Shown: positions 251-57,957 of the stretch, in pieces
Position numbering within the stretch: position 1 is the stretch's first letter
How the letters are laid out: each line of letters opens with the position of its first letter
Assembly: GCA_017552435.1 (NCBI GenBank)
Contig: JAFZPZ010000047.1
Location: 1-57,957 of the forward strand
Source of the DNA: Bacteroidaceae bacterium
Lineage (GTDB): Bacteria > Bacteroidota > Bacteroidia > Bacteroidales > Bacteroidaceae
Length of the DNA stretch: 57,957 bases
Reading direction: 5' to 3'
Position numbers and translations under genes: made by a program
The notes under the pieces: generated by a model
Seen by the model: only the letters and a program-made list of their open reading frames with translations
Told to the model about the DNA's origin: nothing
Database searches by the model: none

Positions 251-350
251 TTCGTAACTTTGTGGCAAGTATCGCTGTTTTCGTCACAAAAGACGCATGC
301 TTTCAGCATGAAATCAAGTCCCTGAGCGCAGGGAGGCGGTATGATCTTAT
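251..350 (+). repeat. 100-bp promoter + structured RNA repeat, copy 1
   Basis: 97 of 100 bases match 57030-57129. Predicted RNA from about 269: closing stem GTATCGC (269-275) with GCGGTAT (336-342, two wobbles); hairpin CGTC 282-285 / GACG 292-295; hairpin CATGCT 296-301 / AGCATG 305-310 with loop TTC; hairpin CCCTG 320-324 / CAGGG 329-333. The A-to-G change at 293 in copy 2 keeps pairing as a wobble. It may be a small RNA gene or a mobile leader. A 26-codon micro-ORF starting at ATG 341 is present here but not in copy 2. Confidence 0.6.
255..262 (+). promoter_or_regulatory. Bacteroidetes -7 box (TAACTTTG)
   Basis: Matches TAnnTTTG. Transcription is expected to begin around 269, the first base of a closing stem in the structured repeat. 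The corresponding box in the second copy (57034-57041) is TAAATTTG, which differs only at a free position. Confidence 0.6.
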
Positions 351-383
351 CTGTAAAACATAGCGTTCTGCTATTTATTCAAG

Positions 384-505
384 ACGAATCCAAAGTTTGG
401 CCACTAAGGAAACCTTGTTAAGAATGAATCAGCGAACGTTCACGCATGGCGTGGACGTCTCGTTTTCGTCTTACAAGGTCGGTTAGGCCAAACACCGGGA
501 TTCGT
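384..505 (+). ncRNA. Long multi-part hairpin in R-M leader
   Basis: Four nested stems stack into one rod: 384-391/498-505 (ACGAATCC/GGATTCGT), 395-402/486-493 (GTTTGGCC/GGCCAAAC), 412-418/473-479 (ACCTTGT/ACAAGGT) and 436-445/449-458 (ten pairs, loop ATG). Downstream segments can compete: 523-530 (CGTCCACG) can pair with 450-457, and 543-549 (GTTTGGC) with 487-493. This would suit a switchable leader or a discrete structured RNA. I do not recognise an RNA family. Confidence 0.55.
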
Positions 506-569
506 GGATGGAAACAATGAGTCGTCCACGTTTCTTGTTTGTGTTTGGCAACAATCGCGTCAGAGCGTG

Positions 570-603
570 ATTGATAGTTGAATGCTTTTAACTAACTATC
601 AAT
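570..603 (+). promoter_or_regulatory. Stem-loop at the methyltransferase start
   Basis: ATTGATAGTT (570-579) and AACTATCAAT (594-603) form a perfect 10-bp inverted repeat with a 14-nt spacer, ending two bases before the ATG at 606. It would occlude ribosome loading, or act as an operator. A weaker hairpin at 553-559/566-572 overlaps its 5' arm and is mutually exclusive with it. Confidence 0.5.
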
Positions 604-605
604 TC

Positions 606-1598
606 ATGGCTAACAAGAACCTGAATGCTGCCAAAGAAGCGAAGAAGGATGAGTTCTATACGCAGTTGGAGGACATTAATAACGAATTGAAGCATTATCG
701 TGAGCATTTTCGTGGAAAGACTGTTCTTTGTAACTGCGATGATCCACGTGTATCGAATTTCTTCACTTATTTTGCTTATAACTTTGAGTTCCTTGGCTTA
801 AAGCGGCTTATAACAACCTGCTATAAGAACCAAAACATGGACCTGTTCAGTCAAAATAAGTGTGAACAGGCCATCTATCTGATTTATGATGGGGACAAGA
901 ACGGTAATAACATTCCTGACCCAGAGGAAATAGGCATTCATCCTTTGAAAGGTGATGGTGACTTTCGCTCGAAGGAATGTGTCGAACTTCTGAAACAGGC
1001 AGACATCGTGGTCACAAACCCACCATTCTCGTTGTTCCGTGAATATGTAGCTCAGTTGATAGAGTACGATAAGAAATTCTTGATTATTGGTCATCAGAAT
1101 GCCATCCACTACAAAGAAATCTTTCCTCTAATAAAGGAAAATAGAGTTTGGTTGGGCTATGGATTTAAAGGCGGTGCAGCTCATTTTATTTCACAATATG
1201 AAGATGTTGCTACAGCTGGGGATCATAAAGAAGGAATGATTCGAGTTTCAGGTGTACAATGGTTCACGAACTTAGAAATAAAGAAAAGGCATGAGGACAT
1301 CATTCTATATCGCCTCTACTCTCCTGAGACTTATCCTCATTACGACAATTATGATGCCATAGATGTTGGAAAGACTGAAGATATTCCATGTGATTATGAT
1401 GGAATAATGGGTGTTCCCGATACTTTCCTTGAAAAGTTCAATCCTGACCAATTCGAAATAATAGGTCTGGGGAATGGCGATTTGGCAAAACAAGCAGGTG
1501 TGTCCAAAAACTACAGAGGCCGCACAGACCTTGCCTATACAATTAACGGCATACACAAATGTCCTTATAGTAGAATCTTAATCCGAAGAAAGAATTAA
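606..1598 (+). CDS. EcoRI-family adenine-specific DNA methyltransferase
   Basis: Probably transfers a methyl group from SAM to adenine N6 within a recognition site, protecting host DNA. The 330-residue protein begins MANKNLNAAKEAKKDEFYTQ and has the amino-methyltransferase motif NPPF at about residue 140 (VVTNPPFSLFREY), as in the EcoRI methylase family. An in-frame ATG at 582 would add eight residues but lies inside the start-site stem-loop, so 606 is preferred. It is the first gene of a three-gene operon; the next gene starts one base after its stop. No specificity can be assigned from sequence. The long structured leader upstream suggests post-transcriptional control. Confidence 0.85.
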   Translation: MANKNLNAAKEAKKDEFYTQLEDINNELKHYREHFRGKTVLCNCDDPRVSNFFTYFAYNFEFLGLKRLITTCYKNQNMDLFSQNKCEQAIYLIYDGDKNGNNIPDPEEIGIHPLKGDGDFRSKECVELLKQADIVVTNPPFSLFREYVAQLIEYDKKFLIIGHQNAIHYKEIFPLIKENRVWLGYGFKGGAAHFISQYEDVATAGDHKEGMIRVSGVQWFTNLEIKKRHEDIILYRLYSPETYPHYDNYDAIDVGKTEDIPCDYDGIMGVPDTFLEKFNPDQFEIIGLGNGDLAKQAGVSKNYRGRTDLAYTINGIHKCPYSRILIRRKN

Positions 1599-1599
1599 C

Positions 1600-2709
1600 A
1601 TGGAAATCAAACTGCAATCAATCCGAGTTCGTGACCTTGTTGCTGGTTACGAGAACGATGCCGACAAAGGTGTGTGGGGCTATGGCGGACGTCTTGATAT
1701 CAGACCTCCATATCAGCGCGAGTTCCGTTATGACTTGAAACAAAAACAGGCAGTTGTCAATACGATATTGAAAGGTTTCCCACTCAATATCATGTATTGG
1801 AGCGTAGTTGGTAACGACAAATATGAGATGATTGACGGTCAGCAGCGCACACTAAGCATTTGTGAATATCGTTATCATGACTTCAATATTGTTGACCCAG
1901 AACGTGGGGTGCTATTCTTCGCCTCACTCACAGACAAGGAGAAAGAAGATTTCTTAAACTATGAACTATCGGTTTATTTCTGCACCGGTACGGATAAAGA
2001 GAAGCTTGACTGGTTCCGTGTCATCAACATAGCTGGTGAACGTTTGCTTGACCAGGAACTACTGAACGCCATCTATGTTGGGCCATTCATTAGCGATGCT
2101 CGTCGCCACTTCTCCAAAAATGGATGCCCTGCATACAAAATGGCAAATGACTTGTTAAATGGCAATGCTATCGAACAAGCTTATCTGGCAACCATACTTC
2201 ATTGGGCAGCTCGTCGTGATGGTGTGAAAGAGGTGAGCGAATATATGTCGAAGCATCAGAACGATGTCAATGCCAACCAGCTTTGGGCCTACTTCTCGGC
2301 TATCGTCACTTGGGTACGCTCTACATTCATCAAGTATCGCAAGGAGATGAAGGGTTTGGATTGGGGCTATCTCTATGACACTTACCACGAACAGATCTAC
2401 GATACTGCGCGGTTGGAGCAACTTATCCATGACTTGATGGAGGATGACGAAATTATGAAGAAGTCGGGCATTTATAGTTATGTACTTAGTGGTGATCTTC
2501 GTGACCTCAGTTTTCGCACCTTCGACAAGAAACAGAAGCGAGAAGCCTACGAACGGCAAGGCGGCATCTGTCCTATCTGCGGCAAACACTTCGAGCTGGA
2601 AGAGATGGAAGGTGACCATATTACCCCGTGGGCAGAGGGAGGTGTCACAAGTGCAGAGAACTGCCAGATGCTGTGCAAGGAATGTAACAGAAGAAAAGGA
2701 GCAAAATAA
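1600..2709 (+). CDS. DUF262 (GmrSD/ParB-like) protein with C-terminal HNH nuclease
   Basis: The N-terminal half shows the DUF262 signature: RPPYQREFRYD near residue 36 and the nucleotide-binding motif DGQQRTLSICEY near residue 89. The C-terminal ~55 residues are an HNH domain with zinc-knuckle cysteines (CPICGKHF ... CKECNRRKG) and core GDHITPW. DUF262 proteins include modification-dependent nucleases such as GmrSD, in which DGQQR supports NTP hydrolysis. Coupling to the methyltransferase one base upstream suggests a restriction or target-sensing subunit of the same system. Whether it cuts modified or unmodified DNA cannot be told from sequence. Confidence 0.8.
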   Translation: MEIKLQSIRVRDLVAGYENDADKGVWGYGGRLDIRPPYQREFRYDLKQKQAVVNTILKGFPLNIMYWSVVGNDKYEMIDGQQRTLSICEYRYHDFNIVDPERGVLFFASLTDKEKEDFLNYELSVYFCTGTDKEKLDWFRVINIAGERLLDQELLNAIYVGPFISDARRHFSKNGCPAYKMANDLLNGNAIEQAYLATILHWAARRDGVKEVSEYMSKHQNDVNANQLWAYFSAIVTWVRSTFIKYRKEMKGLDWGYLYDTYHEQIYDTARLEQLIHDLMEDDEIMKKSGIYSYVLSGDLRDLSFRTFDKKQKREAYERQGGICPICGKHFELEEMEGDHITPWAEGGVTSAENCQMLCKECNRRKGAK

Positions 2710-2722
2710 ATAAAGATATACT

Positions 2723-4249
2723 ATGATAGAAAAATGGAACTACTTCGTTTATGACCTATGCGAGGCCAAAAAGAAGGATGTTGATGAAGATAGCTTTCAT
2801 GCTCTCATCGAAACCCAATTACAACACTTAGGTTGGGCAAAATTCAAGGGCGAGATATGTCATAAGCAAAATATTCACCTTGGAAATAGCAATCGCATTG
2901 AACCTGACATCTTAATAAAGAAGGATGGAGAAGACGAATTTGTAATTGAGGTAAAACGCCCATCACATAAACAGATTAAGAAGGACGTTGATCAGCTACT
3001 ATCATATATGCGTATCTTAAAGCTTAATGTGGGCATATATATAGGTGAATACATTGAGGTCTTTTACGATATGCCTACTAGCAAGGAAGCTGTTTCTGTA
3101 ATGAAGGTTCCATTGGAAATTAATAACAAGTATGGGGCAAAGTTTGTTGAACAGTTCGATAAAGAGAACTTCAGCCAAGAATCCATCGTGAATTTCTGTG
3201 AAGAACGCCTTCAAGAGATACAACGCCAGAACAGCTTGAATGAAATCAAGGAAAGCTTGATTGCTGATGCTCAAACACAGATAGCAGATAGTCTGAGACC
3301 TTATCTGATGGACAAATATGGCAGTAGTTTCTCTGAGGATGAAATCAAAGGCATGTTGGAAACTATGCGGTTTACCGCTTCAGTTGATGGAAGCAAACCA
3401 GAGTCCAAAGTGGTTGTTCCCAAGTCTCAACCTAAGCCAAAATCGAAAAGCAGTCTTATCAAGTGTTTCCTAACCAGAAATGCTGATGCCAAGGGACTTT
3501 TTAATCCAACGGATCAATCGTTGACGGTTTTAGCTGGTAGTAGAATCAATCCTGTGCATCTTGACAAGATTAGTCCGGCAGGAAGAAAGAAGCGCGACAT
3601 ACTATTCGCGAAATATACGGAATACAGAAATGGCGAAAGAACTGTCAAGGAGGATATTTGCTTCGACTCGCCCAGCGGCGCAGCGCAGTTCTGTGTCGGC
3701 GGCTCTTCCAACGGATGGTGTCAATGGAAAGATGAAGATGGGCGTGAATTGAACGAATATCGCATCAACGACGGTACGCGCAAGTCAGAAAGTCGTTTCG
3801 ACACAAACAGGGTAACAGACCCACGCAAGTTCCAGCTGGACTTCTGGACGAAATTCAAAAACAAGACAGAGGCAACGGGAAAGATTCCTACTTTACAAAC
3901 ACCCCAGCCCCACAATTGGTATGACGTGAGGATAGGACGCTCGAACATCTTGTTGAACCTTGTTTGCAACACACAGAAGAACTTTGTTGGTGTGAAATTG
4001 TATATCAGGAAGCCCGCTGTAGATAAGTACTATCCTGCATTAGAAGCCAGGAAAGATGAGATAAACCGTGCTCTCGGATGTGAACCGAAGTGGAATGCTA
4101 ACCCATCAGCTCAAGATAAGACAATCGCCCTGTTCTACCAAACAGATCTAACAGACCCGCAGAAAGAGGAGAAAGCACTCGACTGGCTGGTTGAGCAAAC
4201 CATCATCTTTTACAATGTTTTCTCAGAAGAAGTGAAAGGAATAAATTAA
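2723..4249 (+). CDS. PD-(D/E)XK nuclease with DUF4357 and DUF4268 regions
   Basis: The N-terminal ~130 residues resemble the type I HsdR N-terminal nuclease fold, with the catalytic pattern EPDILIKKDGEDEFVIEVKRP (Asp, then Glu-X-Lys), here quoted only as far as needed: EPDILI and EFVIEVKRP. A DUF4357-like segment follows around residue 310 (SPSGAAQFCVGGSSNGW). The last ~150 residues look like DUF4268, common in restriction-associated proteins. There is no helicase motor, so it is not a full HsdR. Starting 13 bp after the HNH gene, it is probably the main endonuclease of the island. Its stop overlaps, tail to tail, the stop of a truncated gene on the other strand. Confidence 0.78.
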   Translation: MIEKWNYFVYDLCEAKKKDVDEDSFHALIETQLQHLGWAKFKGEICHKQNIHLGNSNRIEPDILIKKDGEDEFVIEVKRPSHKQIKKDVDQLLSYMRILKLNVGIYIGEYIEVFYDMPTSKEAVSVMKVPLEINNKYGAKFVEQFDKENFSQESIVNFCEERLQEIQRQNSLNEIKESLIADAQTQIADSLRPYLMDKYGSSFSEDEIKGMLETMRFTASVDGSKPESKVVVPKSQPKPKSKSSLIKCFLTRNADAKGLFNPTDQSLTVLAGSRINPVHLDKISPAGRKKRDILFAKYTEYRNGERTVKEDICFDSPSGAAQFCVGGSSNGWCQWKDEDGRELNEYRINDGTRKSESRFDTNRVTDPRKFQLDFWTKFKNKTEATGKIPTLQTPQPHNWYDVRIGRSNILLNLVCNTQKNFVGVKLYIRKPAVDKYYPALEARKDEINRALGCEPKWNANPSAQDKTIALFYQTDLTDPQKEEKALDWLVEQTIIFYNVFSEEVKGIN

Positions 4250-55069: not shown

Positions 55070-55112
55070 AGTTGCGGATGTCGCGGAAAACAATTGATAA
55101 TTGACAATTAAA

Positions 55113-56888
55113 ATGAAACAGATAAAAGTAAAACGAGACTATCAGGCTGCGCCCAAAGGGGGCGCAGCCGTACCAATTGGCACACCTGCCCCACAAGTTC
55201 CTTTATCCTCACTTCCCGCCTATCACGGTATTCCCTACTCGGAGATTGTGGATGCCTGGTTGGGCGGCAAGGCGGTGGCAATAGGCGACAGGCACTACAC
55301 ATCGCTGATGCTGGCCGACCAACTGCGCTACATCACGGAAAACGACCCGGTACTCATCGAACAGATCCTGCGCGCGACGCCGTTCGTGGATGAGATTGTG
55401 AGGGAGAGGAACGAGAATGTGGCCCAGACGGTGAAGAGCGCAATGGATTATGAATTCCTGAAGGGCATACCGAAACGGATGCAGGAGGCGATTGAGAAAG
55501 TGAAAAATGAAAAATTAAAAATTAAAAATGAGGACGGGCAACAAGAGACGGAAGACGACAGGGATTTGGCGGAGCTGACCGAGGGCTGGAACCCGCCAGC
55601 ATTGCCACAGAAGCTGCCGCGACTTATCGCCCTGCTCATCAAACCTTTCCCGAGCCAGTACCACCCCATGCTCGTGGTTACTGCATGCGTCATCCTCGGC
55701 ACCATCGCCAGCCACTACCGCAGCACTTACATCGACGGCCGCACCATAGCAGCCAATCTCTATGCTGCCATCATCGCAGGTAGCGGAAAGGGAAAGAGCT
55801 GGGTATCGATGCTATTGGAACTGATGTGCAGGAACACCCTACAGACGTGGGACGATGCCGAGTGGCGCAAGGTGCGCGAGAACCAGGAGATGCGCGACAA
55901 GATGGCAAACGCCAAGGACAAGCCAGCCAAATATCACCCGCGTTTCCGCATCATGGAAACCATGTCTAAGACCTCTCTCCTTGAGGTGCAGACAAACCTG
56001 GGAGAGAACGGTATGCTGCTCTGCAACTACACCGAAAGCGACGAGCTGGCAAACGCATCGCGGGCGCAGTTCAGCAACATCTCCGTATTGCTCCGCAAGG
56101 CATGGGACCTCGACACACACCGCCAGTTCTACATGAGCGACAACTCGTGCAGCACCCAGTGCCGACTCTGTGCTGCCATCCTGCTCACAGGTACCCCGAA
56201 GAGTGTCCTTTCCCGTCTCTTCTCTGACACCGAGAACGGCATGATGCAACGCTTCCTGCCCATGATGATGCCGAAAATCAAACGCACCTTCCGCCCGCCT
56301 GTATTCACCTCTCTTCCTGCTGACGAGGAAGCTGAACGCGACGGACTGCTCGCGAGTCTCTGGCAGAAAGACCTCTCGCTGGGCGACGGCACACTCCTGC
56401 TGGAGATGCCCAAGACGCAGAAGATGATCCAGCAGTGGTACGACGAGTTGGAAGAGCGCTATACAGAAGGAGCACTTTCTGAAGCAGAAGCCGACCTCAG
56501 CCACCGTGTGGGACAGTTCATGCAGCGGGCAGCCATCCCCTTCGTGGCCCTATACGGGGAAGAGCAGAAGGAGGTCATCGACCTGGCGCGCTGGCTCGGA
56601 GATTTCGCCTACTACAACATCTGCCACATCTTTGCATCGCGCGTCGCCCAGGACATGAGGGAATCGGAACAGATGCTTCAACAGCAGTCGGATGGGCGAA
56701 TCACAGCAGAACCTCTGTTAAACCGCATGCCCGACATCTTCACCGCCCAGCAGTTCCGCGAAGAACGCATCCGGCAAGGCCAAAGCAGCGAAGTGAAGGT
56801 ACTGCTCTCACGATACTGTAAAAGCGGAAAGATAGAACGGATAGAAAAAGGCGTTTATAGAAAAATTAAAAATGAAAAGGTTACATAG
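55113..56888 (+). CDS. DUF3987 primase-helicase-like ATPase
   Basis: 591 residues from ATG 55113. The central part has a Walker A-type loop IIAGSGKGKSWVSMLLELM near residue 230 and further DUF3987 features (ILLTGTPKSVLSRLFSDTEN, MMQRFLPMMMPKIKRTF). DUF3987 proteins partner VirE_N proteins on plasmids, prophages and chromosomal islands. Oddities: a GC hairpin (55145-55169) in the 5' coding region, an AAAATTAAAAATGA array (55500-55530) encoding KNEKLKIKNED, and a 3' end inside a second array plus the 37-bp TGTAACC repeat. Confidence 0.82.
   Translation: MKQIKVKRDYQAAPKGGAAVPIGTPAPQVPLSSLPAYHGIPYSEIVDAWLGGKAVAIGDRHYTSLMLADQLRYITENDPVLIEQILRATPFVDEIVRERNENVAQTVKSAMDYEFLKGIPKRMQEAIEKVKNEKLKIKNEDGQQETEDDRDLAELTEGWNPPALPQKLPRLIALLIKPFPSQYHPMLVVTACVILGTIASHYRSTYIDGRTIAANLYAAIIAGSGKGKSWVSMLLELMCRNTLQTWDDAEWRKVRENQEMRDKMANAKDKPAKYHPRFRIMETMSKTSLLEVQTNLGENGMLLCNYTESDELANASRAQFSNISVLLRKAWDLDTHRQFYMSDNSCSTQCRLCAAILLTGTPKSVLSRLFSDTENGMMQRFLPMMMPKIKRTFRPPVFTSLPADEEAERDGLLASLWQKDLSLGDGTLLLEMPKTQKMIQQWYDELEERYTEGALSEAEADLSHRVGQFMQRAAIPFVALYGEEQKEVIDLARWLGDFAYYNICHIFASRVAQDMRESEQMLQQQSDGRITAEPLLNRMPDIFTAQQFREERIRQGQSSEVKVLLSRYCKSGKIERIEKGVYRKIKNEKVT
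55145..55169. repeat. GC hairpin in the DUF3987 gene
   Basis: GGCTGCGCCC and GGGCGCAGCC are perfect 10-bp arms around a 5-nt loop, encoding QAAPKGGAAV about ten codons after the start. It could be an inserted REP-like unit or a translational control hairpin. Confidence 0.5.
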
Positions 56889-57029: not shown

Positions 57030-57129
57030 TTCGTAAATTTGTGGCAAGTATCGCTGTTTTCGTCACAAAAGGCGCATGCTTTCAGCATGAAATCAAGTCC
57101 CTGAGCGCAGGGAGGCGGTATGATTTTAT
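57030..57129 (+). repeat. 100-bp promoter + structured RNA repeat, copy 2
   Basis: Matches 251-350 with three differences: within the -7 box at a free position (TAAATTTG, 57034-57041), A-to-G at 57072 that keeps stem pairing, and one base after the closing stem. Similarity does not extend upstream of 57030 or downstream of 57129. The region to 57250 has no recognised gene. Confidence 0.6.
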
Positions 57130-57253
57130 AGATGTAATTTTGCGTTAGGAAAAGTACGTCAAAACAGCTAAAAGTCGTTTGAAAAATAACGGTGGTTTTA
57201 TAAAAAGTCGCTAAAAAAATAACAAATAATTTTGCAGACTCGTTGGAATTTTG

Positions 57254-57394: not shown

Positions 57395-57957
57395 ATGTTA
57401 AGACGTAGAATATCAGTACTGTTGGAACAATGGAAGGCAAAACCTAACCATAAGCCGCTCGTTATTATGGGCATTCGGCAATGCGGAAAGACCTTCATTG
57501 CACAACAGTTTGCCAACGAAAACTACAAGCACGTCATCTATATCAACTTTTTCAAGGAAGAGGAGCGGAAGACGGCTTTTTACGGTTCCAAGGATGTGGA
57601 CAATATCATCATGCTCCTGTCTGCCCAGATGCGTAATGCCAAGTTCGTTCCGGGTGAGACATGCATCATCCTTGACGAAATACAGGAATGTCCAGAAGCC
57701 CGCACAAGCCTGAAGTTTTTCAAAGAGGACGGCCGCTACGACATCATCGCCACCGGCTCGCTTTTGGGTGTGCTGGGATATGGCCAGGAGCAGAAGAAGC
57801 GACGTAAGAGAGGTGTCGCCAAGCAGGAGAAGGGCAGCACATCCATCCCTGTGGGTTACGAGGAGATAGTGGAGATGTACCCGCTCGACTTCGAGGAGTT
57901 CCTCTGGGCGAACAACATGAGCGAGGAGGTTATCGATGTCTTGAGGCGATGCTTGGC
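57395..57957 (+). CDS. AAA_14/DUF4143-type ATPase, cut by window end
   Basis: 187 residues are visible, MLRRRISVLLEQWKAKPNHK onward. Walker A is GIRQCGKT (near residue 28), Walker B is CIILDEIQE, and sensor-like IIATGSLLG follows. MYPLDFEEFLWA is the family hallmark before the DUF4143 domain, which lies beyond the window. These ATPases are common, variable accessory genes of Bacteroidales, of unknown cellular role. A basic insert (EQKKRRKRGVAKQEKG) sits after the sensor motif. Confidence 0.85.
   Translation, partial: MLRRRISVLLEQWKAKPNHKPLVIMGIRQCGKTFIAQQFANENYKHVIYINFFKEEERKTAFYGSKDVDNIIMLLSAQMRNAKFVPGETCIILDEIQECPEARTSLKFFKEDGRYDIIATGSLLGVLGYGQEQKKRRKRGVAKQEKGSTSIPVGYEEIVEMYPLDFEEFLWANNMSEEVIDVLRRCL

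Follow-up and report, generated by a model that had tools for sequence, protein, structure and literature searches.

Near both ends of a 57,957-nt stretch of DNA from a Bacteroidaceae bacterium (contig JAFZPZ010000047.1 of assembly GCA_017552435.1, hereafter the window) lies a 100-bp repeat, which probably represents the promoter and the 5' domain (D1) of a family of cis-acting, switching leader RNAs. Full leaders measure about 330 nt, and are made by the promoter-proximal D1 and by a second structured region (D2), which ends close to the start codon of the downstream gene. The leaders form a structured RNA family, marked by compensatory changes beyond those found in shuffled and slid controls. 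Judged from sequence comparisons, their anatomy is attenuator-like, as two mutually exclusive helices appear to be both under selection; a function as expression switch is likely but unproven. The family is real, large and cis-acting, and apparently uncatalogued.

The two copies, at positions 251–350 and 57030–57129, match at 97 of 100 positions, as a preliminary description of the window had reported. The three mismatches also are as described there: C/A within TAAcTTTG, A/G in hairpin 1, where the pair persists as a wobble, C/T beyond the fold. The statement that similarity stops at the repeat borders holds for this pair only, since contig C86 opens with a nearly identical version of window bases 1–250; the window contig (C67) thus begins inside a longer repeat. 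C67 and C86 share nearly the same ~350 bases at their start, and the contig end is therefore viewed as an assembly break in a repeat extending upstream of the promoter. Six copies of the 100-mer, 95–100% identical to the first, reside in the genome, two in C67, one in C26, one in C86 and two in C92. The repeat pair is not due to chance, because the four copies outside the window are 95–98% identical; one of the C92 copies matches bases 1–92 only. D2 elements in the same genome number 14 (150 candidates scored), and four are joined to a D1 copy (in C67, C26, C86 and C92). The two D1 copies lacking D2 are the one at 57030 and one in C92, found ahead of a gene which, by its sequence, we take to be RhuM-like. 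In the latter locus (L126) a second D1, joined to D2, is found 1.3 kb further on, ahead of a member of the N6_N4 methylase cluster, and a locus from another genome (L047) starts with the same order.

The TAnnTTTG promoter element, placed by the earlier description at the start of the repeat, was found in 69/87 D1 loci, compared to 18/939 control windows, and lies 4–5 nt ahead of the start of the D1 model in 64/87 of the D1 loci tested. D1 had been described as a closing stem with three hairpins. In an alignment of 24 RNAs 92.4% of the cells are paired, and double-change cells number 32, versus 11 in shuffles (0/500). Changes are located in helices P1, H1 and H4, so that closing stem and hairpin 1 covary; H3 is nearly invariant. 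In L033, L037, L046 and L048 the tip of hairpin H1 hosts a short insert of the type CGCTCGGCTCTGCCGCTT...AGCGAAGCGAG, resembling a small mobile repeat which respects the stem. A leader peptide starting from GTATGAT was discarded, as ATG and frame vary among loci when compared by eye.

D1 is not confined to one genome. The conserved-hairpin pattern marks 37 loci in named genomes, many from ruminants, though at least one (L029) resembles a chance match, and is present in 11/139 genomes of the same genus, own genome counted. R1, a model of D1 and H4 built from 24 regular loci, matches 32/399 genomes of the family and 7/30 genera (E up to 0.01). Homologues are thus found elsewhere; the loci marked by the pattern belong to Prevotella, Prevotellaceae, Bacteroidaceae, Bacteroidales and Xylanibacter genomes. 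The exact D1 pattern has no match in the viral_contigs collection, in which D2 was not searched, the phage collection not being searched at all; window positions 251–590 have no match in plasmids. A phage or plasmid origin is unsupported by these searches.

At most D1 loci D2 follows D1 and reaches near the start codon. D1 as a free small RNA, proposed earlier as a stand-alone transcript of ~80 nt ending near 350, is therefore not supported; at copy 1 structure continues towards the start codon at 606, at copy 2 no continuation was found. The other proposal, a mobile structured leader before defence-like genes, comes near: a structured, possibly mobile leader lies ahead of restriction-modification (R-M) type genes, but is longer than claimed and includes the much more widespread D2 domain downstream. 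D2 is a ~155-nt arm formed by helices P5, P6, P7 and P8, with hairpin H4 ahead of it and, after it, a strand (P9) ending in a U tract. After removal of 14 irregular or truncated entries, duplex folding revealed the P5-P6 duplex in the 74 leaders examined; in L037 it is weak. In 39 aligned leaders 98.3% of the D2 cells are paired (100% in P6), and double-change cells number 203, compared to 53 in shuffles (0/500).

The D2 model R2 (155 positions, threshold E up to 0.001) matches 206/301, 130/393 and 42/247 genomes in draws from the family, the order and the class, respectively, and 11/198 in a phylum-wide draw, ten of these 11 belonging to the same class. The draws overlap, the own genome is among those counted and, with only 7–15 candidates scored per genome, copy numbers are minimum values. 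D2 alone is widespread in Bacteroidia. Tandem D2 pairs occur in G675 and G572, two genomes of the same genus (L170 and L174), the first copy being almost identical in both.

Exclusive helices were analyzed in a wide sample of 60 D2 matches, hand-picked from the order and family matches listed (30 each). Fifty of them form alignment A8, ten irregular or near-duplicate ones having been removed by hand. In A8, P8 is paired in 94.7% of the cells, with 31 double-change cells versus 10.0 expected (0/500); the count of P8 pairs that carry a double change gives 34/500 against shuffles. The T helix, in which the 3' strand of P8 pairs with P9, is paired in 93.0% of the cells, with 19 double-change cells versus 3.1 expected (0/500). 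P8 and T share A8 columns 119–126, and both are far above slid controls. In the window the P8 3' strand (450–457) is complementary to 523–530, followed by TTTCTTGTTT, and would thereby form a terminator-like alternative to P8. A tract of at least 5 T follows P9 in 44/60 members of the wide sample (shuffled mean 10, maximum 19), and in 28/66 near leaders (mean 9 and maximum 20 in shuffles). Ahead of the T run, a local fold reaching −5 kcal/mol or lower is present in 39/57 near RNAs, but in only 6/52 RNAs of the wide set.

A second set of alternative pairings lies further downstream. In 66 near leaders (from the 74 above) the 3' half of the arm is complementary to strands past the T tract and to bases just before the start codon. 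A leader's own pairs beat 1,000/1,000 permutations both overall (66) and within classes (61), and two controls did not; the complement of S3 and downstream sequences beats 1,000/1,000 permutations in the wide sample too. A pseudoknot initially surmised between strands named pkA and pkB was abandoned, as both nest within the downstream alternative state. In 33/63 full leaders the downstream state lies at most 0.5 kcal/mol from the minimum-energy fold, and in 11/63 the arm does. The arm being the minimum when the RNA is cut at the U tract, and the downstream fold often the minimum in the full leader, co-transcriptional switching is suggested.

Several observations weigh against a switching leader. 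The number of pair types in D2 is not above shuffles in two alignments (351/500 and 131/500). For RNAs truncated at the U tract, folding gives the arm as the minimum in 50/50 cases, forcing T costs a median of 13 kcal/mol, and the T loop measures 50–61 nt; T thus does not look like an ordinary terminator, typically a GC-rich stem closed by a short loop right before the tract, and according to the folding model would need help or a pseudoknot to form. Groups used for within-class permutations are coarse, one class including 39 leaders, and a control pairing the 5' part of H4 with the strand flanking P8 was positive in both sets (0/1000). Relatedness can therefore inflate the permutation test; for the T helix, direct counts are used instead. 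A candidate pairing between the H4 3' flank and the strand before P8 scored 0/1000, as did this control, and is accordingly unproven. By direct counts, the downstream state exceeds shuffles only slightly in class beta (9 RNAs; 0/500 for paired cells, 33/500 for the covariation score), in which the P8:Z helix is paired in 48.6% of the cells, and in class gamma (10 RNAs; 4/500 and 2/500), while no covariation above shuffles was detected in class alpha (11 RNAs, 87.6% paired). Predicted accessibility of the start codon is alike in the two folds (0.44 and 0.43). In D1-bearing Bacteroidaceae leaders the downstream pairings thus appear supported by permutation, and less by direct counts.

These data might be accommodated by a constitutive structured 5' untranslated region, in which arm and alternative pairings serve mRNA stability or processing, and no switching takes place. 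In all 50 RNAs no fold is more stable at the U tract than the arm, the mRNA could be protected by D1, a stem-loop at its 5' end, and direct counts back the downstream state weakly. Such a region would however hardly account for helices P8 and T, which share a strand and both covary over 50 RNAs, nor for the retention of the T tract in most of the wide sample, and is regarded as rather unlikely.

D1 entries are 88 (one locus is duplicated), and in 79 an open reading frame (ORF) was chosen, the longest starting at most 450 nt downstream. Once the duplicate and three D1-only entries are subtracted, 75 D1-D2 loci are left, and 67/75 precede an ORF belonging to an R-M-type cluster, according to Pfam searches on cluster representatives. 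Domains found include EcoRI_methylase, HsdM/N6_Mtase, N6_N4_Mtase, C5 methylase, MethyltransfD12, MmeI/Eco57I, ResIII, and SNF2/Helicase_C, the latter accompanied in some loci by a PLD nuclease domain; the 15 SNF2-type loci resemble R-M loci in domain content only. Of the remaining loci, two fall in a DUF4011 cluster (the member tested has a MTES_1575 nuclease domain), six precede other genes. The wide sample is less biased. In it, R-M-type genes number at least 15/60, including three that score below the Pfam cut-off, and 19/60 pass a crude signal-peptide rule, which also admits membrane proteins; among the families listed (25/36), BspA-type LRR_5 domains were found in three of the 60 and SprB repeats in one. 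On these counts D2 is a general leader, and the D1-bearing form the R-M-biased one.

The position of D2 is that of a cis-acting leader. Flanks were complete in 48 loci, mostly the highest-scoring matches. An ORF of at least 100 codons on the same strand starts 40–140 nt downstream of D2 in 39 of these, two loci having no ORF; on the opposite side and strand such an ORF was found in one locus, 19 having none. Single orientation and narrow distance to the ORF (39/48 versus 1/48) are thus combined with a promoter at the 5' edge (69/87, D1 loci).

D1 and D2 differ in their relationship to the genome. Median D1 identity is 0.88 within and 0.70 between genomes, and pairs at least 85% identical are 28/51 and 55/3,519, respectively; corresponding figures for D2 are 0.66 and 0.65, 0/36 and 74/2,890. 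Genomes G397, G434 and G031 host two D1 kinds each, every kind with its own near-identical pair. D1 follows the genome and D2 does not, and the window repeat accordingly reflects a 5' module that is specific to the genome and linked to D2-gene modules unrelated to one another. This pattern is expected from gene conversion between D1 copies, and equally from a D1 already in place acquiring new D2-gene modules behind it. Modules differing from D1 were noticed upstream of some D2 elements. In contig C113 of the own genome (L225) another D1-like stem, with CCTCAGCGGAGG, stands before D2, and by eye resembles the second D1 kind found in other genomes. Another 5' module, with ATG(A/G)CATAAA, takes the place of D1 in L215, L217 and L224 of the own genome, as in L216 and L222; genes behind these D2 elements look secreted and partly BspA-like by eye. 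Similar ATGACATAA strings are found ahead of D2 in other families (L164, L167, L171, L172).

The same modularity, along with the presence of some copies at contig ends and of R-M genes, typical mobile accessory genes, would fit a DNA element, i.e. an integron-like recombination or insertion site capturing accessory cassettes, with hairpins acting as DNA. The frequency of G-U pairs in covarying helices (25 U-G at one P8 pair), the single orientation, the narrow distance before the ORF and the promoter element at the 5' edge make this improbable. Equally improbable is a trans-acting RNA, either a small RNA or a guide, made beside R-M genes: P6 and P7 sequences vary freely and are mostly still paired, as a specificity region might be, but the same is expected from neutral compensatory drift, position is narrow with one orientation before the ORF, and strands extending up to the start codon join pairings that beat permutation.

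Searches with the 4,227 models of Rfam 15 gave no match in the window, and none over D1 or D2 at the gathering threshold in the loci scanned: four matches, all far below thresholds, were obtained in 6 loci at E up to 5, one tRNA only in 15 loci, and one DUF805 RNA only, outside D2, in 20 loci. No description of the leader family was found in the part of the open PubMed Central (PMC) literature consulted; supplementary tables of candidate RNAs, which fall outside this scope, may list an unnamed fragment. The DUF805 RNA (RF03081), likewise a cis-regulatory element in Rfam, occupies positions 704–773 of L172, a locus from a far relative, where it separates D2 from the start codon; by eye, L171 resembles this locus. 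RF03081 is matched by neither D1 nor D2, and is a separate downstream element, found in 1/20 loci in the scan. Trp-type attenuators and riboswitch expression platforms share with the leaders the 5' location and exclusive helices competing for one strand, one of them beside a U tract. In contrast to these, no leader peptide seems conserved by eye, the T loop is long, no ligand is assigned, and one leader serves many unrelated operons. C-proteins similarly provide a dedicated control layer before R-M genes, but the layer described here is RNA rather than a DNA-binding protein, and is common to several R-M types and other genes. In the LoaP/UpxY systems NusG paralogues mediate antitermination dependent on leader RNAs; a shared trans factor of this sort would explain one leader on many operons, but for the leaders described here is hypothetical.

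Features of the window are listed in Table 1. The D2 domain of the first leader spans 354–537 overall. The methyltransferase ORF opens at 582, and the start at 606 agrees with that of homologues. R2 matches only the first leader in the window, and no match at E 0.001 was found at copy 2. Both copies had been reported to lead accessory genes; this is true of copy 1, which precedes an R-M operon, while copy 2 consists of D1 alone, and the AAA_14 gene behind it has by eye a TAnnTTTG-like sequence of its own. Upstream of copy 2, positions 55101–56885 encode a DUF3987 protein, whose match to AbiEi_4 is weak and falls below the cut-off.

Table 1. Leader components and genes in the window
Feature	Position	Strand	Evidence
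Promoter −7 element TAACTTTG, copy 1	255..262	+	sequence; TAnnTTTG statistics over D1 loci
D1, 5' domain, copy 1	267..350	+	R1 match 267–382, 89.4 bits (R1 built with this copy, L001, included)
D1 helices	closing stem P1 269–276/335–342; H1 282–285/292–295; H2 296–301/305–310; H3 320–324/329–333	+	P1, H1 covariation in 24 RNAs
H4 hairpin ATAGC/GCTAT, start of D2	360..374	+	sequence; helix 4 paired in 76.4% of cells
D2 arm	354..510	+	R2 match, 56.2 bits (window copy absent from R2); family covariation
D2 arm helices	P5 384–391/498–505; P6 395–402/486–493; P8 436–445/449–458	+	
P9 strand CGTCCACG and T-rich run (531–540)	523..540	+	sequence; family-wide T-helix covariation
EcoRI-type adenine methyltransferase	606..1598	+	PF13651, E 3.9e-139
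GmrSD_N and HNH endonuclease	1600..2709	+	PF03235, PF01844
DUF4268/DUF4357 protein, HSDR_N match below cut-off	2723..4249	+	Pfam domain matches
Promoter −7 element TAAATTTG, copy 2	57034..57041	+	sequence
Copy 2, solitary D1	57046..57129	+	R1 match 57046–57158, 68.7 bits
AAA_14 ATPase gene after copy 2, open at window end	57395..57957	+	PF13173

The leaders may thus be viewed as cis-acting switches working as follows. D1 is a stem-loop domain at the predicted 5' end of the transcript, and tends to be homogenised within a genome and combined with different D2-gene modules. The arm would fold first, and correspond to the on-state. Should the arm be disturbed, the 3' strand of P8 would leave P8 and pair with P9 beside the U tract, an alternative backed by covariation, or the downstream pairings would form, and expression would fall. 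The leader would in this way decide, during and after transcription, whether the downstream operon is transcribed and translated. Operons put under its control would be mostly R-M ones and, in wider relatives, also those for secreted and surface proteins.

R-M systems need balance to avoid cutting host DNA, and their control is known mainly through protein regulators. More speculatively, one ancient leader family could provide in Bacteroidia a common post-initiation control of R-M and surface proteins, such that a single signal or trans factor, for example one tied to phage attack, retunes defence and phage-exposed surface together, with D1 as genome-specific docking part and D2 as gene-borne switch; the probability of this is low. 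A leader RNA common to several R-M types, helicase-type and other genes would represent a large uncatalogued family of regulatory RNAs, and would open direct access to the way defence levels are set in gut and rumen Bacteroidia.
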